A stretch of 47,767 nt of DNA, from positions 1 to 47,767 of the IMG/VR virus record IMGVR_UViG_3300025687_005584, one strand, 5' to 3'. The position numbers were made by a program, and so were the translations under genes. Origin of the DNA: a virus. The notes under the pieces are model-generated. The model had not been told where the DNA came from, searched no databases, and saw only the letters and a program-made list of their open reading frames with translations. Of the stretch, positions 617 through 30,947 are shown piece after piece; positions within the stretch are counted from its first letter, which is position 1, and every line of letters starts with the position of its first letter.

Positions 617-1219
617 ATGATGATTACGCCAGAATTTGCAGGAGCCGTAGCAACACTTGTCGGTGCAGGCATCGCAGTGTTAGGATTTTTATACAGAGCC
701 TTTACTTTTGTCAAATCATTTCAAAGATCTCAAGAAGAAGTAAAGGAGTCAATTAGAATTATCAAGGCAGAAGTCACACCTAATAGCGGTAAATCTTTAA
801 AAGATACTGTAAATTCATTGAAGAAGGCTTGTGACAGAATAGAAGCTAGACAAAAGGTATTAGATCAAAGATCGAAAGCCGCCCTTCACTACAACGAGAC
901 TCCGCTTTTTGAGACAGATATTAAGGGTAGATTAACTTGGTGCAACGAAGCATTTTTAGAATTAACAAAAGACAACGGTAGTTGTAGCGAAGGATTCGAT
1001 TGGCTAACGGTTATCGAAGATGATCGAAGAGACGATTTTCTGACAGAGTTTAACTCCTGTTTGAAGATGTGCCGAAAGATTGACATTGAAACCGTTTCCG
1101 TTCATGGAAGGCTCATACATTTTGTTGGATACCCTTACAGAGTTGCTAAAGGTATTCATGAAGGATTTTTAATTCATCTTCAAGTTTATTCACAGGAGAA
1201 TGAAAATGAACGAAGGTAG
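617..1219 (+). CDS. Membrane-anchored PAS-domain protein
   Basis: Residues about 8-30 form a hydrophobic transmembrane helix. Residues about 35-90 are charged and helical (probable coiled coil), and residues about 92-195 look like a PAS fold: an ETDIKGRLTWCN-type strand pair, a DWL turn and an EDDR segment. PAS domains bind small ligands or mediate dimer contacts; no kinase, cyclase or other output domain follows, so any signal would be passed through the coiled coil or the membrane. GGAGG at 609-613 serves ATG 617 or, with better spacing, ATG 620. It overlaps the holin-like gene downstream. A role as sensor or timing element of lysis is inference. Confidence 0.65.
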   Translation: MMITPEFAGAVATLVGAGIAVLGFLYRAFTFVKSFQRSQEEVKESIRIIKAEVTPNSGKSLKDTVNSLKKACDRIEARQKVLDQRSKAALHYNETPLFETDIKGRLTWCNEAFLELTKDNGSCSEGFDWLTVIEDDRRDDFLTEFNSCLKMCRKIDIETVSVHGRLIHFVGYPYRVAKGIHEGFLIHLQVYSQENENERR

Positions 1220-1424
1220 TAAAAGGTTTAAGTTAAATTGGGGCGACATTTCTAGTGTCGTTAAAAACGCTCTTTTGGTGGGCGGTGCATCAGCACTGAC
1301 TGTTGTCGCAGAAAACTTGGATGTTGTTGACATCGGAATTTATACTCCGCTTGTTGTTCCAATCATCGCTGTTGGTCTTGATACCGCTATCAAGTGGCTA
1401 AAAGACGCTTCACCGAAAGATTAA
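1206..1424 (+). CDS. Small membrane protein, holin candidate
   Basis: The 72-residue product has a basic N-terminus and two hydrophobic stretches (about residues 20-37 and 44-62) split by a short acidic turn, then a charged tail. Size and topology suit a class II-like holin or other small phage membrane protein. AGGAG at 1194-1198 sits seven bases from ATG 1206 and only one base from the in-frame ATG 1200, so 1206 is preferred. It lies immediately before a peptidase gene, the position expected for a holin paired with a lysis enzyme. No sequence motif proves holin function. Confidence 0.5.
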   Translation: MNEGSKRFKLNWGDISSVVKNALLVGGASALTVVAENLDVVDIGIYTPLVVPIIAVGLDTAIKWLKDASPKD

Positions 1425-1438
1425 GACAGGAGTAAAAA

Positions 1439-2365
1439 ATGGACTTTAACACGCCACGCGATTTGCTTAACGCATATCGTAACGGTTTTGATGGTGCTGT
1501 ATGTGACCCAGAAGAAACCGCAGAGTTACTAGGCCGGTTAAAGACTCCACTCTTTGGTGCTGCTGCTTATAAGCTATTTGGAGCAGGGGAAGGTAAACTT
1601 TCCCTGCCCTTTCTTTCTTTGCTTAAATTCGATAAGGGCTTTGGGCCATCAGAAAAGCAGACAACTGGTGATTGTGTCAGTCATTCTACTAGAAATGCTA
1701 TAGACATAACAAGAGCAGTTGAAATTGACATCAAAGGCGAGTCAGAAGATTTTGTAGTTAGAAGTGCAACGGAAGCAATCTATCAAAGTAGAGGGCACAA
1801 GGGTCAGGGGATGACTTGTTCTGGTGCCGCTAAATATGTCCACGAGAAGGGTGGAATTCTTTTAAGAAAAGATTATGGAAAAGTAGACCTATCAAAATAT
1901 AATTCTAGCTTAGGTGCAAGACATAATATTCCTAAGAGTATTTATATTGACGAAGCTAGTAAGCATCAGGTGAAGACTATTTCCGCAATCACAACCGTCG
2001 AAGAAGCCAGAGATGCTCTAGCCAATGGTTACGGTATTTCTGTTTGTTCTGGCTACGGATTCTCAAGTAGGCGAGACTCAAAGGGTATCGCAAAGAGATC
2101 TGGTAGCTGGGCACATGCGATGGCATGGATAGCCTGTGATGACACAAGAGAGCGTTACAATGAAATGCTATTCTTGGTACAAAACAGTTGGGGTAAATGG
2201 AATAGTGGCCCCAAGGTTCATGGGCAACCAGATGGAAGTTTCTGGATCAGGGAACGAGATGCAAGAGGTATGCTGTCAGGTAACTGGGGATCTTGGGTCT
2301 TTAGTGACGTAGACGGTTTCCCAGCTAGGAAACTTCCGAATTACGGTTTCAAAAAATATCTATAA
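1439..2365 (+). CDS. Papain-like (C1 family) cysteine peptidase
   Basis: The product (308 residues) carries the order expected for papain-type peptidases: oxyanion Gln74 and nucleophile Cys79 in QTTGDC, His226 in WAHAM and Asn249 in QNSWG. There is no signal peptide, so it would act in the cytoplasm or reach the envelope through a holin or inside a virion. AGGAG at 1427-1431 supports ATG 1439. Known options for such enzymes in phages are lysis, head maturation or modification of host proteins. Its place between a holin-like gene and an exported thioredoxin-fold gene favours the envelope. That role is inference; the peptidase fold call rests on the catalytic motifs. Confidence 0.75.
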   Translation: MDFNTPRDLLNAYRNGFDGAVCDPEETAELLGRLKTPLFGAAAYKLFGAGEGKLSLPFLSLLKFDKGFGPSEKQTTGDCVSHSTRNAIDITRAVEIDIKGESEDFVVRSATEAIYQSRGHKGQGMTCSGAAKYVHEKGGILLRKDYGKVDLSKYNSSLGARHNIPKSIYIDEASKHQVKTISAITTVEEARDALANGYGISVCSGYGFSSRRDSKGIAKRSGSWAHAMAWIACDDTRERYNEMLFLVQNSWGKWNSGPKVHGQPDGSFWIRERDARGMLSGNWGSWVFSDVDGFPARKLPNYGFKKYL

Positions 2366-2375
2366 GGCATTAACA

Positions 2376-2948
2376 ATGAAAAATTTAGTATATGTATTAG
2401 CTTTGTGTCTGGGTGCTTCTTCAACCCTTGGTTGTAATGCACAAGATTGCGACCATGCTAAAAAAATACGAGCTTATCAAGCTACACGCTTGGCTATTGC
2501 TGCGATGAATAATCCAGATACAACGCCAGACGAAGTAGATGAAGAACTTTGCGACGGGTCTGGCTGGATCATCCAAGGAGATGGTCATAAAACAGAATGT
2601 CCGGGTTGTTCAGCCTGCAAGAAAAAAGATGGGCAAATGGCTGCTGATATGGAGCCAGAATACAATGTATATCACTTTGGTGCTAAATGGTGTGGACCAT
2701 GCCAGCAGATGATTAAGAATACTTGGCCTGATGAAAAAATGGTTAAGTTTCTAAAAGATAAAAAGGCAAAACTTTTTGTGTTCGATGTAGACAATAAAGA
2801 TCATAAGAAGTATTTCTCGTACTATAAAGTGACTTCGTACCCTACAATTATCTTGTTAGATAAAGATAATTTGAATAAACCACTTCAAAGAAATGTAGGT
2901 GGAATGAGTGCAGAGTCCATGATTAAAGAATTGGATAAGGTACTATGA
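2376..2948 (+). CDS. Exported thioredoxin-fold protein
   Basis: An N-terminal hydrophobic segment (about residues 4-20, ending near Cys20) looks like a signal peptide or imperfect lipobox. The thioredoxin domain (about 95-190) has the redox motif WCGPC at 105-109 and a cis-proline context SYPT. Between them is a cysteine cluster, CPGCSAC, at 75-81 following a GDGH segment, possibly a metal site. The protein should act outside the cytoplasmic membrane, reducing, forming or shuffling disulfides. It sits directly after the cysteine peptidase gene and overlaps the next gene by four bases. Possible jobs are keeping Cys79 of the peptidase reduced or opening disulfides in the host envelope. Confidence 0.8.
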   Translation: MKNLVYVLALCLGASSTLGCNAQDCDHAKKIRAYQATRLAIAAMNNPDTTPDEVDEELCDGSGWIIQGDGHKTECPGCSACKKKDGQMAADMEPEYNVYHFGAKWCGPCQQMIKNTWPDEKMVKFLKDKKAKLFVFDVDNKDHKKYFSYYKVTSYPTIILLDKDNLNKPLQRNVGGMSAESMIKELDKVL

Positions 2949-6921: not shown

Positions 6922-7994
6922 AAACAATCTTTAATACCAAGAATGTAGACCCAATGACTCAGCCACTTTTTCTTGGTAAAGACCTTGGAGTGCAGCGATA
7001 TGATGTTGTCAAGTATCCAATCTTCAAGGAGCTTGACAGTAAGCAGATGATGAACTTCTGGCGACCAGAAGAAATCGAACTAAAGAAAGACCGTGGCGAC
7101 TTCAAGGAGATGTCGGACAATGAGAAGTTTATCTTTACGTCTAATCTGAAATATCAGACCATGCTTGACAGTGTGATCTGTCGTGGTGTTCCTACTTTGC
7201 TAGAGTTTGTTACAAACACAGAGCTAGAAGCCTGCTTGATGACGTGGCAATTCTTTGAGAAGATTCACTCGCAAAGTTATAGTTATATCATTCAGAATGT
7301 CTTTGCTGACAGTTCCGAAATTTTTGGCGGAATTTATGAAGATAAAGAGATTATGAAGCGGGCAGACAGTGCTATCGCAGACTATAATAATTTGATGGGC
7401 ATGGCTTGCGATACAACATCTAAGGCAGACCTGAAGAAGCAAATCTACATGACGGTTATTAGTATCAATATTCTTGAGGCTATCCGGTTTTATGTCAGCT
7501 TTATCTGTAGCTTTGCGTTTGCAGAGAACAAGAAGATGGTCGGCAACGCAGATATTATCAAGCTCATCAAACGTGATGAGGCTTTGCACCTAGCCAATAC
7601 TCAGCAGATCCTAAAGATTCTCCATACGGAAGAGTCAGAAGGATTTGTTAGTACAGCCGCTAAGTGTCAAGATGCCGCCGTTGAAATGTTTGATAGAGCA
7701 GCGGCAGAAGAAAAAGAATGGGCATCGTACCTATTCCAAAACGGATCAATTATTGGACTCAACGAGACTGTACTACACCAATACATTGATTGGCTCTGTA
7801 TGTCTCGAAGAAAAGCTATTGGGCTTCCATACGAGAACGTTGGAAAGAACCCAATCGCAGGTTGGACGCAGGCTTGGATGCAGAGCGAAAGCGTTCAAGT
7901 GGCTCCACAGGAACATGAAATTACTAGCTATAAAATCGGTGCTAGTAAAAATGATTTAGATGATATGGACTTAGGAGGATTTACTTATGAGTGA
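6918..7994 (+). CDS. nrdB: Ribonucleoside-diphosphate reductase, class Ia small subunit
   Basis: The 358-residue product aligns with NrdB. Di-iron ligands and radical tyrosine are visible: Asp84 (KYQTMLDS), Glu114 and His117 (FEKIHS), Tyr121 (SQSYSY), the Glu of LEAIRFY, and the RDEALH pair. The C-terminal tail (GGFTYE) resembles the peptide that docks on NrdA. It makes the stable tyrosyl radical that starts ribonucleotide reduction. The presence of the tyrosine argues for a standard class Ia enzyme rather than a Mn/Fe class Ic type. The start overlaps the upstream gene by four bases. Confidence 0.97.
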   Translation: MKTIFNTKNVDPMTQPLFLGKDLGVQRYDVVKYPIFKELDSKQMMNFWRPEEIELKKDRGDFKEMSDNEKFIFTSNLKYQTMLDSVICRGVPTLLEFVTNTELEACLMTWQFFEKIHSQSYSYIIQNVFADSSEIFGGIYEDKEIMKRADSAIADYNNLMGMACDTTSKADLKKQIYMTVISINILEAIRFYVSFICSFAFAENKKMVGNADIIKLIKRDEALHLANTQQILKILHTEESEGFVSTAAKCQDAAVEMFDRAAAEEKEWASYLFQNGSIIGLNETVLHQYIDWLCMSRRKAIGLPYENVGKNPIAGWTQAWMQSESVQVAPQEHEITSYKIGASKNDLDDMDLGGFTYE

Positions 7995-8424
7995 ATTTAG
8001 TCGTGAAGATATTCTTGAGTTGGGACGTAAAACCCCTGACTTCCCTATTCCAAGTAAAGAGGGTATCACTAAACTTAGAAATATTCTCGCCAGTAATACT
8101 GGTGGTGGCACAATGGAGAATGTTGGAACTAAATCTTATATTGAAATGATTACACAGTGGCATCACGACCGTAATCTTATTGAAGGGTCTACGGACAAAG
8201 ATCAGTTTTGTAAACTAATGCAGGAAGCTGGTGAGCTTTCTGATAGTATTTGCAAAGGTAAAGATGTCTCTGACGATATTGGCGACATGATCGTTGTACT
8301 AATCAATATTGCAGAGAGGAACAAATTGAGCATCTCACAATGTCTTTCGAAGGCATGGGATGACATTAAAGACAGGAAAGGCAAGATGGTTGACGGTGTG
8401 TTCGTTAAGGAGGCCGATCTATAA
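7987..8424 (+). CDS. MazG-like nucleotide pyrophosphohydrolase
   Basis: The C-terminal half has the MazG-type helical metal site: the EAGEL pair in QEAGELSD and the downstream DDIGDM motif. The first ~50 residues are an unrelated N-terminal extension. Enzymes of this family hydrolyse (d)NTPs to monophosphates and are common next to phage nucleotide-metabolism genes, where they may clean the dNTP pool or affect host alarmone signalling. AGGAGG at 7974-7979 supports the start, which overlaps nrdB. Confidence 0.8.
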   Translation: MSEFSREDILELGRKTPDFPIPSKEGITKLRNILASNTGGGTMENVGTKSYIEMITQWHHDRNLIEGSTDKDQFCKLMQEAGELSDSICKGKDVSDDIGDMIVVLINIAERNKLSISQCLSKAWDDIKDRKGKMVDGVFVKEADL

Positions 8425-8447
8425 ACTTTCCCACATAAGGGTTTTAA

Positions 8448-9119
8448 ATGAGAACTAAACGACAAAGACGAGAAGACAACAAGAAACCTAATCACAAAAT
8501 TAAATCTTTAGAAGCAAAAACAGAAAACCAAAGAGACTATATCAGGGCAATCGTAGAGAACGATATTATATTTTGTTCTGGTCCAGCGGGTTCTGGTAAG
8601 TCTTTTATAGCAGCAGGAATCGCCGCTCAACACCTACATCACAATAGGATTGAGCAGATCATTGTAACTAGACCACTAGTTTGTACTGGTAAAGACATCG
8701 GGTCTTTGCCGGGAGAGATGGGTGAGAAAATCGCACCCTATCTTTTACCAATGAAAGAAAACCTAAAGCACTTTCTTGGTCAAGCATACTACGGTCTTTA
8801 TTCCAATGAGGGTCAGATCCAGTACAAACCTTTAGAAGTCATGAGAGGATCTACATTTCATAACTCCTACATGATCTTGGATGAAGCACAAAACTGTACT
8901 GAAGATCAGATTAAAATGTTTGTCTCTCGTATGGGTGAAAACAGTAAAGTCATTATCAATGGAGATATTGAACAAAATGATTTGCGTGGTCGGAGTGGTC
9001 TTGAGTTTTGCATGAATAGACTAGACCGTATTGACGGAATTGGAATTTGCAAACTAGGCTACGAAGATATTCAGAGGAATGGGATTATAGGAAGATTTTT
9101 AAGAGCATTGGAGAACTAA
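8448..9119 (+). CDS. phoH: PhoH-family ATPase
   Basis: The 223-residue product shows Walker A GPAGSGKS (45-52) and Walker B ILDEAQ (143-148), with RPLV and MRGSTF segments typical of PhoH. The basic N-terminus (about 1-25) may contact nucleic acid. PhoH-type ATPases are widespread in marine and freshwater phages; some have RNA helicase or RNase-linked activity, but their job during infection is not settled. It follows the MazG gene by 23 bases and abuts the next gene. Confidence 0.93.
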   Translation: MRTKRQRREDNKKPNHKIKSLEAKTENQRDYIRAIVENDIIFCSGPAGSGKSFIAAGIAAQHLHHNRIEQIIVTRPLVCTGKDIGSLPGEMGEKIAPYLLPMKENLKHFLGQAYYGLYSNEGQIQYKPLEVMRGSTFHNSYMILDEAQNCTEDQIKMFVSRMGENSKVIINGDIEQNDLRGRSGLEFCMNRLDRIDGIGICKLGYEDIQRNGIIGRFLRALEN

Positions 9120-18448: not shown

Positions 18449-19469
18449 AAGTTCATCATATAACAATTATGATTTTTGCCAAATGCAGTATTTCCTGACC
18501 TATAATCTAGGTTGGAGAGGTTCTAGCGGCAAACGAGCAGATATGGGAACTATGGCCCACAAGGTCATGGAGATTCTCGCTGGACTTAAAAAGTTTCAGC
18601 AGGACAATCCTCGTAGAAAATGGCTAGAGATTGTAGATGATAAGTGTGGCAAAGTCAGGGTTAGCAAGGATGATCTCTACACTGACGCTTTTGTAGACGA
18701 ATTGATCGCCAGATCCATCAAGGATTACGGCGAAACATCTGCCCATAAATTCTACCGCAAAGAGCGACAGGAAGTAAAAGACACAGTATACACTTTCCTT
18801 ACTCACAATGACGGTCAATTTGACCCTAGACAAAGAAATGTATACTATCCAGAGCCGCACTTCGACCTGCCAATCGAGGAAGATTGGGCAAAGTTCGACT
18901 TTGTAGACGCAAACGGCAACACCCAAAAAGGGCAGTTGGCTATCAAGGGGACGATTGACCTCGTTACACTTCTTGACGAAGATACGATTGAGGTGGTTGA
19001 CTGGAAAAGCGGTCGTCGTCTAAATTGGGCTAGTGGCGAAGAAAAAACCTACGAAAAAATGATGAATGACCCACAGTTATTGCTCTATTTCTACGCTATG
19101 TCCAAGATGTTTCCCGATTTCCCCAATAGAATTATGAGTATTTTCTTCTATAAAGACACTGAGGGGGAACCAGATCCTACACCGTATAGCTTCTGTTTTA
19201 CCAAGGAAGATGAAGATAGATTTCTAGGTATGCTGAAAAAGCGGGTAGAAGAAATTAGACAAAATACCAATCCATCTGTATTAGATCCAACTAGAACTGA
19301 CTTTAGATGTAAATATTTATGTCATTTTTGCAAGAACAGCTTTGAAGGCGAGACGGATAATATGTGTATAACTATAGAGAAGGAATTAGTTCAGCTTGGA
19401 ATGGATGAGGTGGTGAAGAAACGTACTGCACCTGACTTTAATATTGGATTCTATGAGGCACCCGGATAA
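18429..19469 (+). CDS. Cas4/RecB-like PD-(D/E)XK exonuclease, possible Fe-S protein
   Basis: The 346-residue product has the RecB-nuclease motifs in order: GTMAHKVME (His44), GTIDLV, EVVDWKSG and QLLLYFYAM. Cys17 near the N-terminus and a C-terminal group CKYLCHFC plus a later Cys match the four-cysteine iron-sulfur layout of Cas4/AddB-type nucleases. It probably trims DNA ends for recombination or degrades host DNA. No cas1/cas2 or repeats are nearby, so this is not a CRISPR locus. AAAGGA at 18418-18423 supports the start. Confidence 0.85.
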   Translation: MLVTYVRSSSYNNYDFCQMQYFLTYNLGWRGSSGKRADMGTMAHKVMEILAGLKKFQQDNPRRKWLEIVDDKCGKVRVSKDDLYTDAFVDELIARSIKDYGETSAHKFYRKERQEVKDTVYTFLTHNDGQFDPRQRNVYYPEPHFDLPIEEDWAKFDFVDANGNTQKGQLAIKGTIDLVTLLDEDTIEVVDWKSGRRLNWASGEEKTYEKMMNDPQLLLYFYAMSKMFPDFPNRIMSIFFYKDTEGEPDPTPYSFCFTKEDEDRFLGMLKKRVEEIRQNTNPSVLDPTRTDFRCKYLCHFCKNSFEGETDNMCITIEKELVQLGMDEVVKKRTAPDFNIGFYEAPG

Positions 19470-19894
19470 TGAAAAGAAGAGAATTTCTAAAGGTTTCTGC
19501 CGCTACGAGTTTAGCCGCCGTAGCGGGTTTACAGTCTGAATGTGTCTCCAAAGAGGTAGAAAAGCCTCTCTTCGATTACGGAGAGATTTATTGCTCTCCA
19601 GAAGTAATGGAGGACATAAAGAAATGGGGTGTAGACAAGGTAGATGAGCAAACTAAAAAAGAAATATTAGCAGAAGAGCCACAAGCAAAAGATCTAAATG
19701 AGAACAGATACTACAATCCTCACTGGAATGTAAACGGTAGTTGGGGCAAGGCCAATAGCAGATCTGTATTAATATCACATCTTAGCGGACCTAATCATGG
19801 ATTCAAGCTATCCAGATTAAATCAATTATCTACAGACGAATTACAAAAATTACACGATGACGACCATGATAGTCGTAGAAGGTGGAGAAGATGA
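19469..19894 (+). CDS. Tat-signal exported protein, unknown
   Basis: The N-terminus MKRREFLKVSAATSLAAVAG is a twin-arginine signal (RREFLK) with an Ala-rich hydrophobic stretch and a cysteine soon after (Cys25). The mature part (~115 residues) is acidic, has an NPHWNVNGSWG segment and a charged tail, and matches no family I know. It is coupled to a second Tat-signal protein through an ATGA overlap, so the two are probably co-exported and may form a complex. Confidence 0.7.
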   Translation: MKRREFLKVSAATSLAAVAGLQSECVSKEVEKPLFDYGEIYCSPEVMEDIKKWGVDKVDEQTKKEILAEEPQAKDLNENRYYNPHWNVNGSWGKANSRSVLISHLSGPNHGFKLSRLNQLSTDELQKLHDDDHDSRRRWRR

Positions 19895-21120
19895 AAAGAC
19901 GAGATTTTATTAAACTAGGAGTGGGAACATATGCGTTGGGAAACGTTACAGCATCTATCGCAGATGATAGGTCAAAAGACGATCCTGCTGTTTTGTTTCT
20001 TTTTCTTAATGGTGGTGCTAGTCACATTGAAACTTTTAACCCTATTCCTCTGGCTCCTGCGGATCGAAGGTCTACTACGGGTTCTATAAAGACAAATGTA
20101 ACTGGTGTAGAAATTGGCGGTCTGTTTAAAGAACTAGCAAAACGAACAGATAAGATCGTAATTCCTAGAGCATTTGGTCACAGAGATCAAAACCATGCAT
20201 CTTCCGTACACTGGGTAGTGACTGGTGAGGCCAATTTTGGTGCTGGCACAAGCTCCAAGTGGCCTAGTCATGGCAGTATGATGAGCGTACACCACGGTGT
20301 CAATACTGCTGATGGATTGCCCACATATATCAAGATTGGTGGATTCCAGCACGACGATGCAGCTTGGTTGGGCGGTAAGTATATGGGATTCGATGCCACC
20401 AGAGAGGGGCGTAAAGACCTACAGCTTCTTGGTAACAGCGACCGTTTCAAAATGAGACTGAGGGTTTTAGACACTGTTGATCGAGGATTCAAGGCTAGAA
20501 ACCAGCAGATAGCAAAAGACTGGCAGGATCTTAAAAACCAATCAGTAGATATTATTCTTGGTAATGCTTCCAAGGCTTTTAGGGTTGAGGAAGACAGAGA
20601 TTATGACAACTTCAAGGGCGATTCTCTTGGGACTGATGCACTCACTGCGATTAGACTGTTAGAAGCTGGCTCTAAGTTTGTGACACTCAGCTATGGCGGC
20701 TGGGATATGCACAACAATATTGTTGGCGGATTACAGAATAGACAGACCGTCCTTGACACATACCTTGCTAAGATTATGGACACTCTAGAACAAAGGGGAA
20801 TGTATGAGCGTGTTATGCTTGTTGTTACTTCTGAATTTGGTCGTACTCCAAAGGTTAACCAAAATGCAGGTCGCGACCATTTCGGAAAACTCGCACCGCT
20901 AATGATTAGCTGCGGAAGCTATGAAATGGGACGAACTGTCGGCACTACCAATGCAAATGCCGACGATTTCGACCAAGGCAGAACAACGCCAGAAGACTTG
21001 GCTTGGACTATTTTTGACCACTTAAACATGCCTAAAAATACAAGGTATACCGCAACGGATGGTAGACCACACAATATCGTTAAAGAAGACTCTAAAAACA
21101 TCTTGAAGGAGATTGTATAA
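19891..21120 (+). CDS. DUF1501 protein with Tat signal (alkaline-phosphatase/sulfatase superfamily-like)
   Basis: The 409-residue product begins MKRRDFIKLGVG, a twin-arginine signal, followed by DUF1501 landmarks: LFLNGGASHIETFNP, HRDQNHASS with VVTGEA, GGWDMHNN, and SEFGRTPKVNQNAGRDH. DUF1501 proteins are exported, relate to the alkaline phosphatase fold, and are very numerous in Planctomycetota; their substrates are mostly unknown. ATG 19891 with GGAG at 19884-19887 is chosen over GTG 19882. All family landmarks seem intact, so it is probably functional. Likely acquired from a host. Confidence 0.88.
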   Translation: MKRRDFIKLGVGTYALGNVTASIADDRSKDDPAVLFLFLNGGASHIETFNPIPLAPADRRSTTGSIKTNVTGVEIGGLFKELAKRTDKIVIPRAFGHRDQNHASSVHWVVTGEANFGAGTSSKWPSHGSMMSVHHGVNTADGLPTYIKIGGFQHDDAAWLGGKYMGFDATREGRKDLQLLGNSDRFKMRLRVLDTVDRGFKARNQQIAKDWQDLKNQSVDIILGNASKAFRVEEDRDYDNFKGDSLGTDALTAIRLLEAGSKFVTLSYGGWDMHNNIVGGLQNRQTVLDTYLAKIMDTLEQRGMYERVMLVVTSEFGRTPKVNQNAGRDHFGKLAPLMISCGSYEMGRTVGTTNANADDFDQGRTTPEDLAWTIFDHLNMPKNTRYTATDGRPHNIVKEDSKNILKEIV

Positions 21121-26176: not shown

Positions 26177-26219
26177 AGGGTGAAGGACGATTGAATGGCA
26201 AATATTGAAAGGAAAAACT

Positions 26220-27857
26220 ATGAAGTGGTTCCCGCTACTGAACTACACCCACTATTCGCTACAATACGGCTTTTCCAAGCCAAATGAGCTTGCTAAGAAA
26301 TGCAAGCAGAATTCTTACCCTGCATGTGGCATCGCTGATTACAAAACAATCAGTGGTGCTGTATCTTTCTACAAAGCCTGCATCGACAATGATATCAAAC
26401 CTATCATTGGTTGTTCTTTCGATGGCTTTGCTCTCTTTGCCAAAAACCATGCAGGATGGCTGAACCTCATCGAGATTGTTTCTACAATTGATGCAGATGG
26501 TAATGAGGATCGAGGCACTATGGTTCGCCTAGCACGACAGGGCAACCTTATTTGCGTTGCCAAGTCTGAGGCTCTGTCTCCCGTCACAGGTGATGACTTC
26601 TACATATGGTCTGACTCTTTTGCTAAGAGTAATTATACAAACAAAGACCAAGCAGAGTTGCACAGGATTGTACTTTGCGGTAAGCTAAAAACCACACTAA
26701 ACAAAGTAAGAAAGAACGGACTATCAGAAACAGATAGTCAGTATGGTGTATTCTTTGAGTCAGACGATTTCTACATTAAAGATAAACTAGAGTCATCCAA
26801 GTTAGTTGTAGACGACCCACGCATGGAAGACTTTGAGGAAATATTTAATAAGTGTGAGAATTACAATATCCTGAGCAAGCCAATGTTGCCAGTCTTTGAG
26901 ACTCCGAACGGACAGTCAGAGAAGGATTACTTGCGGGAACTGGCAAGAGATGGCTGGAAAAAACTTCTTGGTGATAAAGTCACCGGCCAAGAGGAACGTC
27001 AGGTATACGGTGACCGTTTTAGAAAAGAGTTTTCCGTTATTGAAAAAGCAAATCTGTTTGGGTATTTCCTCATCGTTTGGGACATTTTAAATTGGTGTCG
27101 CGAACAAGGATGGATGGTTGGACCCGGACGAGGTTCTGCTGCTGGATGCCTTATCTCTTATCTAATTGGTATCACACAGATTGACCCTATCGAGTTTGAT
27201 CTGCTGTTCGAGCGATTCTACAACGAGGGTCGTAATACCGATGACCATATATCTTTACCCGATATTGACATGGACGTTCCCGGAAATAAGCGTGATGAAA
27301 TTGTAGCCAGACTAAAAGAAACATACGGTGCTGACAACGTTAGTCAGATGCTCACATTTGGTAGACTGCAAGGGCGAAGTGCGATGAAAGAGGTTCTTCG
27401 CGTGAATGACGCTTGCGGCTTCGCAGAAATGAACGAGATCACAAAATACATTCCAGACGAAGCTGCCATCTCTGACCAGCTAAGTGCTATGGATGAAGAA
27501 GATCGCTCTATCATCCGCTGGACACTACAGAATCGTGCAGACGACCTCATGGACTACTGTCATCTCGATGATGAGGGTAGGTTGCAGGGAGACTTTGCAG
27601 AATACTTCCAGCAGGCTATTGATATTGAAGGAACGTTTAAGACACAGGGAAAACACGCTGCTGGCGTTGTTATCTCTGCCGAACCACTATACAAAGTTTG
27701 CCCTATGGTAAACCAAAAGAGTGGCGGCGAGAAGATTGCGGGATTGGAAATGAACGATCTAGAAGCACTAGGTCACGTTAAGTTTGACCTTCTTGGCTTA
27801 AATCTCTTGGATAAATTGATGTATATTGAGGAATTACTAGAAAAATCATCGCAATAG
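26220..27857 (+). CDS. dnaE: DNA polymerase III alpha (family C), N-terminal piece
   Basis: The 545-residue product covers the PHP-derived region (1-225) and most of the palm. All three catalytic aspartates are here: Asp350 and Asp352 in LPDIDMD, and Asp523 in KFDLLGL; GPGRGSAAG (301-309) is the conserved glycine-rich loop. It stops 22 residues after Asp523. The PHP part keeps its outline (GAVSFYKACIDNDIKPIIGC) but has lost metal ligands: the usual HxH reads NYT and TDH reads ADY, so it is probably inactive. ATG 26220 with AAAGGA upstream is preferred over TTG 26205. The remainder is encoded at 29376. Confidence 0.93.
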   Translation: MKWFPLLNYTHYSLQYGFSKPNELAKKCKQNSYPACGIADYKTISGAVSFYKACIDNDIKPIIGCSFDGFALFAKNHAGWLNLIEIVSTIDADGNEDRGTMVRLARQGNLICVAKSEALSPVTGDDFYIWSDSFAKSNYTNKDQAELHRIVLCGKLKTTLNKVRKNGLSETDSQYGVFFESDDFYIKDKLESSKLVVDDPRMEDFEEIFNKCENYNILSKPMLPVFETPNGQSEKDYLRELARDGWKKLLGDKVTGQEERQVYGDRFRKEFSVIEKANLFGYFLIVWDILNWCREQGWMVGPGRGSAAGCLISYLIGITQIDPIEFDLLFERFYNEGRNTDDHISLPDIDMDVPGNKRDEIVARLKETYGADNVSQMLTFGRLQGRSAMKEVLRVNDACGFAEMNEITKYIPDEAAISDQLSAMDEEDRSIIRWTLQNRADDLMDYCHLDDEGRLQGDFAEYFQQAIDIEGTFKTQGKHAAGVVISAEPLYKVCPMVNQKSGGEKIAGLEMNDLEALGHVKFDLLGLNLLDKLMYIEELLEKSSQ

Positions 27858-27923: not shown

Positions 27924-28601
27924 ATGAATAAAGACCTCATTTTTTTCGACTTTGAGACTGGTGGACGTAATCCCCACAAGTGTCAACCTACACAGATTGC
28001 TGCTATCGCACTTGACGGTAGGAACTTTAGACTCAAGGGACAATTCAATAGTCTCATGCGTCCTATTATCGACGACGAGAAAGCAATCAAAGCTGGCGTT
28101 GACCCGCTAGAAGAAGGTGCTTTAAAGGTCACTGGTCAGACCAGAGAGAAACTTGCCAAGGCACCACTTCCAAAAGGTGTATGGAAGAAGTTCTGTGCGT
28201 TTGTGGATAAATATAACTGGAAAGGTACATCATTCTTTGCACCCATTCCATGTGGATTTAATATCCTTGGTTATGATATGCACATCGTAAATAGATTGTG
28301 TAAAGAATACGGCCCATACGATGATAAACGTCAGTGCCAGAAACTCTTTCATCAGATTTATAAAATTGACGTAATGGACGATGTGTGGCTGTGGACAGAG
28401 GGAGACCCAAATGTTAAGTCTATTAGTATGGATAGCTTGCGAGAAAGAATGGGACTGTCCAGTGAAAACGCTCACGACGCTCTCCAAGACGTTAAGGATA
28501 CAGCCAATATCTTCATCAAGTTGCAAAAGTCTCGTCGAGTAGTCTACCGGAACATGAAGTTTGAAAAGGCGTTTGCAGATGGCAACCTCTTTATCAACTA
28601 A
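27924..28601 (+). CDS. dnaQ: DnaQ-like DEDDh 3'-5' exonuclease
   Basis: The 225-residue product carries the DEDDh set: Asp9 and Glu11 in FFDFETGG, Asp118 in NILGYD, His184 and Asp189 in AHDALQD. It is the likely proofreading subunit for the two-piece polymerase whose own PHP domain appears dead. AGAGGA lies just before the start. It sits between the two polymerase genes. Confidence 0.92.
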   Translation: MNKDLIFFDFETGGRNPHKCQPTQIAAIALDGRNFRLKGQFNSLMRPIIDDEKAIKAGVDPLEEGALKVTGQTREKLAKAPLPKGVWKKFCAFVDKYNWKGTSFFAPIPCGFNILGYDMHIVNRLCKEYGPYDDKRQCQKLFHQIYKIDVMDDVWLWTEGDPNVKSISMDSLRERMGLSSENAHDALQDVKDTANIFIKLQKSRRVVYRNMKFEKAFADGNLFIN

Positions 28602-28650
28602 GGTCTGCACCAAGTGCGACCAAGAAAAACCACTGCACGATCTAATCTAG
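28579..28650 (+). pseudogene. Apparent stub of an HNH-type endonuclease zinc ribbon
   Basis: A 23-codon frame starts inside the dnaQ end and reads KVCTKCDQEKPLHDL before a TAG. That pattern (CxKCxxEKPLxxF/L) is the N-terminal zinc knuckle of many phage HNH endonucleases. The rest is missing; the exported CxxCH gene starts eight bases later. I read it as a truncated homing-endonuclease gene, though a short random match is possible. Confidence 0.45.
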
Positions 28651-28658
28651 GAGCGAAG

Positions 28659-29369
28659 ATGAAAACTTTATTAACCGTCGTTTTCTGTGTAATCAGTTGT
28701 GCCTCTTGCTATGCTCAAGAGATCAGCTTGGGTTACACCAAAGAGTCGTTGTTCCCCGTATACCAAATCGGCGGGTACAAAGTATTCCCTGTGGGATACA
28801 ATCCGTCAGCGCCGGGAACAGACCCTCATGGAACCCCAGCAAACCACTTTCCGTGGTTGCATCCGGGGGGATCGCCCGATGGGGCGGATGAGTCACAGTT
28901 CTGGTCTGTCAAGGAACTGAAACTCCCTTCACCAATCGTCGTCCGTAGGTCAGTTATGGAGACACCAGATTGGTATACTGCAATGAGTGACAGAGGATAT
29001 TCTTGGACCTATCCAGTCGGAACGGTGGCAACACTAAAGTTCTTCGACAAAGAATTAGGTGAGTTCTCGCACCACATTTCAACGAAGGTCAGAGAAGGAA
29101 ATGGGATTGATTGTTGGGAAGGTGAAGAAATCCTCTTGACAAAGAGGGTGCCCGTATGGTATAATTCACCTGACAACTGCACTGATTGCCATCAAGATGT
29201 TGGGCGACACGCCCGATCACTTGAGCCGAAGCGACACAACTACTACTTTTGGAACCGTGGTAGCGATGGTCGTTTCAGTTGGCACCCATTCAAAGACACA
29301 GATCGCACCCAAAGGGTAGGTCAGCGTGTCGAAATTCGAGATAGCAGGGAAATCATTTTTCGCAAGTAG
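28659..29369 (+). CDS. Exported CxxCH (c-type heme motif) protein
   Basis: ATG 28659 with GGAG at 28650-28653 gives a 236-residue product with a signal peptide (about 1-19, hydrophobic then CYAQ). The mature part is aromatic- and Pro/Gly-rich, with a single c-type heme motif CTDCH in SPDNCTDCHQDVGRH and a C-terminal FSWHPF block. The heme would be attached outside the cytoplasm by host maturation. No distal ligand can be assigned. It resembles host envelope proteins rather than phage proteins and sits, oddly, between replication genes. A longer reading from 28614 would place 15 residues before the signal and is less likely. Confidence 0.65.
   Translation: MKTLLTVVFCVISCASCYAQEISLGYTKESLFPVYQIGGYKVFPVGYNPSAPGTDPHGTPANHFPWLHPGGSPDGADESQFWSVKELKLPSPIVVRRSVMETPDWYTAMSDRGYSWTYPVGTVATLKFFDKELGEFSHHISTKVREGNGIDCWEGEEILLTKRVPVWYNSPDNCTDCHQDVGRHARSLEPKRHNYYFWNRGSDGRFSWHPFKDTDRTQRVGQRVEIRDSREIIFRK
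29136..29165 (+). promoter_or_regulatory. Possible promoter upstream of the C-terminal polymerase gene
   Basis: Perfect TTGACA (29136-29141) and TATAAT (29160-29165) with an 18-base spacer, inside the CxxCH gene and about 210 bases before 29376. It would let the second polymerase half be transcribed separately from the first. Confidence 0.5.
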
Positions 29370-29375
29370 GAAAGC

Positions 29376-30947
29376 ATGAGAAACATTGATCTGAATGATA
29401 GGAAAACGTGGCAGCTTTACAAGGAAGGGTTGACCAAAGGACTATTTCAGCTTGAGAGTAACCTTGGTCGTGCATGGTCCAAAAGAGTTGCACCGGAAAA
29501 CCTTGAAGAACTAGCGGCATTGATCGCTATCATCAGGCCCGGAACGTTGAAAGCGGTTAGCGAGGGCAAGTCTATGACTCAGCACTTCGTAGACCGTAAA
29601 CATAAAAGAGAAGATGTTGTATACCTCGATCCTAGTCTAGAAGAAATTCTAAAGACTACACATGGTGTACTCGTGTACCAAGAGCAAGCTATGCTCATCG
29701 CAGTCAAAGCTGCGGGGTTCAATGAGATGGAGGCAGACAATCTTCGTAAAGCTATTGGTAAAAAGAAAGCGTCTCTCATGGCTGAGATTCGTGGACAATT
29801 CATCGAGGGCTGTGAAAAGGTTGGACTTGTAGATCAAGACACTGCAAACCAGATTTTTGACTGGATTGAAAAGTCGTCTCGTTATTCGTTCAACAAGTCT
29901 CACGCCGTTGCCTACGCACTCGATTCGTACTGGTCTGCGTACTACAAGGCGAACTACACAAAAGAGTTCTTCTTGTCCTACCTATACTATGCGAATGAAA
30001 AGCAAGATCCTCATCAGGAAATCTATGAGCTAGTAAACGAAGCTAAACTATTCAATATACTAGTAAAGACTCCTAAACTAAGTAGGTTCTCTGAGAAGTT
30101 TGCCATCTTTGGTGATGACATTCAGTTTGGAGTTCGTGACGTTAAAGGTCTCACAGGTGTAACTGGCGAGAAGGTCTTGAAGGCTATTGGTGATGCTACA
30201 GAAGAATTGGGCAAACATCCCGACGAGTTTACTTGGATGGATGTACTTATTTACATCGCCCCCAAGATTACATCTACGGCTTTCAAGGCACTTGCTGGCA
30301 TTGGATTCTTTTCCACAAAGAAAACTGGTGTCACCAGAAATCAAGCCCTGTACGAATATCTCATCTGGCGTGAACTAACAAAGGCAGAAGTTAAATGGGT
30401 AACAGAGAATTACCCTAAAAAGAAGTGGTCAAAACTACAGGATTGTTTCAAAGATCTGTCTCCTACCAAGAAGATGGGCGGTGGTTGCAGTAATGCCAAT
30501 CGTAGTCAGATTGTGTACGGTGAGATTGAGATGCTAAAAAATCCACCATACGATATGTCTGATGAGCCGCAGTGGGTTATCGCAGAAGAAGTCAAACTCT
30601 TGGGTTGCCCAGTGTCGTATCAGTATACAGATGCTATCGACGCATCAATCGCCAATACTACATGTCAAGAAGTAGCCAACGGTAAGTTTGGTAAGGATAT
30701 TTGCATTGTAGCGAATGTCCAACGTGTAGCTAATCATAAGATCAACAAGAAGGATAGCAAGCAAAAGGGCCGGATCATGTCGTTCCTGACAATCGAAGAT
30801 GCCACTTGCTCTCTAGACAATGTTATCGTTTTCCCGGACGCAAGAGACAAGTACCAGTTCGTTTTGTATGAAGGTGCCAACCTTATGCTCTGCGGTGAGA
30901 TTGAAAAAGATAATTCGTTTATTGTTGAGAAAATTCACGAAATCTAG
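29376..30947 (+). CDS. dnaE: DNA polymerase III alpha (family C), C-terminal piece
   Basis: The 523-residue product continues DnaE exactly where the N-terminal piece ends: LFQLES, the AIIRPGTL finger segment, YQEQAM, LRKAIGKKK and YSFNKSHAVAY are all present, followed by the helix-hairpin-helix region (about 230-310) and an OB-fold near the C-terminus (about 430-523). It has no polymerase aspartates of its own and must assemble with the 545-residue partner. No intein sequence is visible at either junction. The start follows the CxxCH gene by six bases with an AGGAA site. Confidence 0.92.
   Translation: MRNIDLNDRKTWQLYKEGLTKGLFQLESNLGRAWSKRVAPENLEELAALIAIIRPGTLKAVSEGKSMTQHFVDRKHKREDVVYLDPSLEEILKTTHGVLVYQEQAMLIAVKAAGFNEMEADNLRKAIGKKKASLMAEIRGQFIEGCEKVGLVDQDTANQIFDWIEKSSRYSFNKSHAVAYALDSYWSAYYKANYTKEFFLSYLYYANEKQDPHQEIYELVNEAKLFNILVKTPKLSRFSEKFAIFGDDIQFGVRDVKGLTGVTGEKVLKAIGDATEELGKHPDEFTWMDVLIYIAPKITSTAFKALAGIGFFSTKKTGVTRNQALYEYLIWRELTKAEVKWVTENYPKKKWSKLQDCFKDLSPTKKMGGGCSNANRSQIVYGEIEMLKNPPYDMSDEPQWVIAEEVKLLGCPVSYQYTDAIDASIANTTCQEVANGKFGKDICIVANVQRVANHKINKKDSKQKGRIMSFLTIEDATCSLDNVIVFPDARDKYQFVLYEGANLMLCGEIEKDNSFIVEKIHEI

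Follow-up and report, generated by a model that had tools for sequence, protein, structure and literature searches.

The window analysed here is a viral DNA fragment of 47,767 bases (IMG/VR record IMGVR_UViG_3300025687_005584, positions 1 to 47,767). The gene under study, denoted P0001, occupies positions 28659-29369 on the plus strand and encodes a protein of 236 amino acids plus stop. The reading frame given for this locus in the ORF list, 28614-29369 (+), begins with GTG, but the ATG at 28659 is the better start: a Shine-Dalgarno-like AGGAG lies 7 nt upstream (approximately 28647-28651, to within a few bases, as read off the sequence), and no comparable ribosome-binding site was noted for the GTG. 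The N-terminus runs from a lysine through a hydrophobic core to a cleavage-like C-Y-A-Q end, and a hydropathy heuristic predicts a signal peptide at about residues 1-20 (MKTLLTVVFCVISCASCYAQ; 28659-28718, plus strand), with a best 11-residue Kyte-Doolittle mean of 2.82, compared with at most 1.12 in the rest of the protein. The heme-c motif CTDCH is located at residues 174-178 (29178-29192, plus strand), followed by a second conserved block, RGSDGRFSWHP, at residues 200-210 (29256-29288, plus strand), in which D203 and H209 are near-invariant in the family alignment. Of the 61 ORFs on the plus strand of the window that reach 60 amino acids or more, no other has a CxxCH, and when the mature part of the protein was shuffled 20,000 times, a CxxCH turned up in only 27 cases. 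Thus, both the signal peptide and the single CTDCH reported in an earlier note on this DNA hold up. The GC content of the gene (0.488) is higher than that of the window (0.407) and of the neighbouring genes. The P0001 ORF is a real gene.

Comparison of P0001 with Pfam, NCBIfam and PHROG models yielded no match above the cut-off. The matches to Pfam CotH (E 0.015) and to the NCBIfam CxxxxCH/CxxCH model (E 0.01) fell below it, covered short stretches, and were rejected. As a single-sequence query, P0001 had no match in viral contigs, phages, plasmids or genome contigs, the similarity to phage record MT837863 (E 0.08) being taken as chance. No cytochrome-maturation gene was recognised within the window. 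The exported thioredoxin encoded at 2376-2948 was considered as a cytochrome maturation partner of P0001, but the related contig G1030 encodes the thioredoxin and lacks the P0001 gene, which lends no support to such a link. In the window, this gene is the last of three consecutive genes (1200-2948) for holin-like, papain-like protease and exported thioredoxin-like proteins, a cassette also present in G1030 (the contig of locus L003).

P0001 is embedded in a split polymerase operon. The gene order is dnaE-N (26205-27857; PF07733, Pol3 alpha, and PF02811, PHP), dnaQ (27924-28601; exonuclease, PF00929, RNase_T), P0001 and dnaE-C (29376-30947; finger domain onward, PF17657), all on the plus strand, so that the placement between dnaQ and dnaE-C given in the earlier note is confirmed by domain matches on both borders. 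A dnaE-C scan gathered 64 related viral loci (L002-L065), and in all 63 of these that have all three genes, the dnaE break point is identical and dnaQ lies between the halves. Both junctions, dnaE-N/dnaQ and dnaQ/dnaE-C, are variable across the relatives and represent hot spots where nucleases or other cargo occur. The dnaQ/dnaE-C junction is empty in many loci, including the closer relatives L050, L051, L023 and L007, where dnaQ and dnaE-C are at most 30 bp apart. Other relatives carry, at one junction or the other, Endonuclease_7, HNH_3, NaeI-type, FkbM methyltransferase or glycosyltransferase-like genes, the glycosyltransferase match and one methyltransferase match being below the Pfam cut-off. 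P0001 itself is found in none of the 64 loci, a family profile search of 49 whole virus records sharing dnaE-C came back empty, and a search of the window for Rfam families, introns among them, yielded none. Because the relatives show an empty site, P0001 is an insertion: single-gene cargo of the moron or auxiliary type, absent from close relatives. The slot being a cargo site in a conserved operon, the replication neighbours tell little about the function of P0001.

Elsewhere in the window, positions 19882-21120 encode a DUF1501 protein with a Tat-like N-terminus; similar proteins occur in L007 (several copies), L023 and L062. The closest cellular relatives found for the phage DUF1501 protein are mostly from Planctomycetota. 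A contig binned as Lokiarchaeota (L066, JABXKB010000239.1) encodes a DUF1501 protein 80% identical to that of the phage and is probably a misbinned phage contig. Just upstream of the DUF1501 gene, positions 19469-19894 encode a 141-aa protein that bears a Tat-like signal and otherwise matches no family. A long run of glycosyltransferase-like, methyltransferase and sugar-epimerase genes, as judged by eye, extends over 22082-45000.

Planctomycetota genomes reached via the DUF1501 gene of the window yielded a full-length homologue of P0001, L146, from which profiles were built. Among genomes from the same class as a Pirellulaceae genome, 19 of 398 carried the family, as did 25 of 397 from the same order (~5-6%). 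It was detected in one of 199 genomes drawn evenly over the phylum and, by profile search, in none of 195 Verrucomicrobiota genomes. An HMM built without P0001 matched P0001 at E 1.8e-22 (Z 100,000) in two domains, the N- and C-terminal halves, compared with a maximum of 3.7 bits among 200 shuffles. In the alignment of 49 family rows, CxxCH is aligned in 48, D203 in all 49 and H209 in 48. The earlier note would have counted a lack of CxxCH in all homologues as refuting its reading; every homologue has the motif, including L164, whose row is misaligned at this point and whose sequence contains CSSCH. The motif and its spacing are invariant in the family, amid widely varying surrounding sequence. 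P0001 carries the family signature, CxxCH followed by R-G-S-D-G-x-F-S-[FW]-H (residues 174-178 and 200-209), and has the N-terminal export signal of the family as assessed by the hydropathy heuristic. On these sequence grounds, P0001 is firmly assigned to an unnamed, putatively exported Planctomycetota family (for example, L146, L166 and L159), with which it shares full-length homology, motifs and export signal type. The cellular copies, mostly ~420 aa, are single genes in ordinary chromosomal settings, whereas P0001 is a 236-aa form without the central insert. Family homologues lie beside PSCyt1/DUF1501-type genes in two Planctomycetota genomes, and the neighbourhoods of the cellular homologues contain no conserved neighbour hinting at NO or respiration. 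The kinship with Planctomycetota anticipated in the earlier note is thus borne out, as is its suggestion of a moron-like or host-derived insertion, given the empty sites in relatives, the higher GC and the chromosomal homologues.

A further 19 viral contigs with the family came from two scans of proteins and one with a DNA pattern, all 15 matches of the latter being true family members. By shared genes, these contigs form roughly ten groupings, several of which share only the family gene or a few others. Hallmark genes, in a check that covered part of the short contigs, include a terminase, portal and protease region in L204 (read by eye); DNA polymerase, terminase and head protein genes in G1093; baseplate wedge and replication genes in G1096; terminase, portal and head genes in G1083 and in the pooled G1084 plus G1085. 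G1090, G1092 and G1095 were scanned as one pool only, and a search for Terminase_6N gave no useful match. P0001 is therefore not a one-off, the family being carried by many unrelated viruses. Four viral gene pairs have dN/dS values of 0.10-0.16, indicating purifying selection, and in 15 of 17 viral relatives the N-terminus obtained with the chosen start is hydrophobic. The full tree of the family requires six to eight changes between viruses and cells, and its well-supported branches force at least two; a single virus clade was not rejected by the AU test on a reduced set (p 0.25), so that independent capture by each virus lineage was dropped as a proven conclusion. In one contig, L211, a holin-like membrane segment lies upstream of the family member in the same reading frame (7614-8960), either as a fusion or as two genes without an intervening stop. 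Two AT-rich phage contigs encode planctomycete-type pilin-like proteins with a prepilin N-terminus (L207, 10112-11059; L212, 6773-7726).

The structure prediction proposed in the earlier note was informative for a relative, but not for P0001 itself, whose own model is poor (pLDDT 48) and too weak for structural alignment. The model of L226, a long viral form, reached pLDDT 80 and pTM 0.82, with N-terminal helices, a beta-sheet and then a CxxCH-bearing helix. Foldseek found no significant match to this model among solved structures. When the chains proposed by Foldseek were re-aligned with VIA-align, the eight best were all cytochrome P460 or c'-beta, at Z 4.0-4.5 over 112-120 residues, values that chance arrangements can also reach; the next, unrelated row had Z 2.6. 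In Pfam, the sole hint for the homologue L146 was P460 (E 0.18), and P0001 did not match the P460 sequence profile (PF16694). In hhalign and HMM tests of the family against planctomycete P460 proteins, CxxCH alone was aligned, and the best member scored ~10 bits in a ranking that is not a clean control, the decoy set having included copies of family members. A by-eye alignment of FPDGTVLVKE with YPVGTVATLK, statistically unanchored, puts a leucine of P0001, and mostly glutamate in its relatives, at the position of the P460 lysine. According to PMC11928373, the P460/c'-beta superfamily combines very low internal sequence similarity with a five-stranded antiparallel sheet and a CXXCH heme after the sheet, and an NO-binding role has been proposed for c'-beta members. 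Judging from the L226 model, a family fold resembling cytochrome P460/c'-beta seems about evenly poised between right and wrong. Because Foldseek alone was not significant and the sequence profiles see only CxxCH, we treat this resemblance as a lead and do not file P0001 as a P460 or c'-beta member.

We propose that P0001 is host-derived cargo, an exported, periplasmic mono-heme c-type protein that would bind a ligand or pass electrons during infection, a reading to which we give roughly an even chance. A single gene of Planctomycetota origin would have entered the phage at the dnaQ/dnaE-C junction. The protein would be synthesised with a signal peptide and leave the cytoplasm by Sec export, after which the c-type maturation system of the host would attach heme to CTDCH, with H178 as the proximal ligand. 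Heme attachment is likely. The folded protein may be a beta-sheet heme domain of the P460/c'-beta-like type, lacking the lysine of P460. Its action in the infected cell would be periplasmic: it would bind a small ligand or pass single electrons; NO is the leading guess for the ligand, albeit an improbable one. The benefit to infection would be an envelope or respiration kept workable.

Other functions can be considered for an exported CxxCH protein of this kind. A role linked to lysis is a genuine competing explanation, as the family gene adjoins holin-like or protease genes in four contigs: it comes after holin-like and papain-like protease genes in G1093 and G1095, has a trypsin-like protease gene on its 3' side in L209, and shares a frame with the holin-like segment in L211 (all these roles read by eye). 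Under this explanation, the protein, with or without heme, would act late, together with holin and protease, to damage the unusual envelope of planctomycetes or make it looser. However, the holin-like/protease cassette of the window (1200-2948) is far from P0001, G1030 retains that cassette without the P0001 gene, the family gene lies between terminase and portal in L204, no lysis gene was seen beside it in virus lineages I, II and IV, and the cellular copies are ordinary chromosomal genes. We accordingly consider a lysis or envelope-breakdown factor quite unlikely.

Somewhat less unlikely, but still doubtful, is an electron carrier, a mono-heme c protein with bis-His or His-Met ligation that would exchange electrons with the respiratory complexes of the host, H209 serving as the sixth ligand. 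The single CxxCH, the H209 aligned in nearly all rows and the PSCyt1/DUF1501-type neighbours of homologues in two Planctomycetota genomes are consistent with such a carrier, whereas the fold lead suggests ligand-binding hemes and H209 is absent from the viral L211. The least probable explanation is a structural metal site, in which CxxCH and H209 would bind zinc in an exported adhesin, inhibitor or structural part. Two cysteines and two conserved histidines could form such a site, but CxxCH in an exported protein is the standard substrate of c-type maturation, and the invariance of the motif and its spacing amid widely varying sequence also argues against zinc.

The putative heme-c cargo can be set beside several known systems. 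Like the P460/c'-beta superfamily (PF16694; PMC11928373), the P0001 family appears to be of the exported CXXCH heme-c type, with a modelled beta-sheet domain preceding CXXCH, and both have an FP.GT strand before the motif. Unlike that superfamily, with which it has no detectable sequence kinship beyond CxxCH, the P0001 family carries an additional C-terminal block (RGSDGIFSFHP) and, in its long forms, a central insert of ~100 aa, and the cross-link lysine of P460 appears to be replaced. The viral auxiliary metabolic genes norB and nirK, which belong to the nitrogen/respiration kind, encode known enzymes and were reported from a single viral contig (PMC8115048), are likewise host-derived redox genes kept by viruses under purifying selection; by contrast, the P0001 family is uncharacterised and recurs in several unrelated virus types. 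The insertion point of P0001 resembles the homing-endonuclease slots of phage replication genes, as it is occupied in relatives by Endonuclease_7, HNH_3 or NaeI-type genes, but the P0001 gene is not a nuclease. In the open-access literature, represented mostly by titles and abstracts, we found neither the P0001 family nor phage P460-like proteins reported, nor any description of a viral envelope-heme strategy. The family also lies outside the coverage of the database models compared.

Exported heme-c proteins are unusual phage cargo, yet viruses of several types share this single uncharacterised family. The carrier viruses infect, or probably infect, Planctomycetota. The recurrence of the family together with purifying selection points to a requirement common to them in the envelope of the host; viruses of Planctomycetes appear to keep the family for a function there. 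A more far-reaching scenario, in which unrelated Planctomycetota viruses would have repeatedly acquired, and would retain by selection, a ligand-binding heme-c protein that is exported, has a P460/c'-beta-like fold, acts as a periplasmic NO or redox effector of infection and is built into the lysis cassette in some lineages, is rather speculative and, as a whole, unlikely. The family offers a testable entry point to viral effects on planctomycete respiration, NO handling or lysis.
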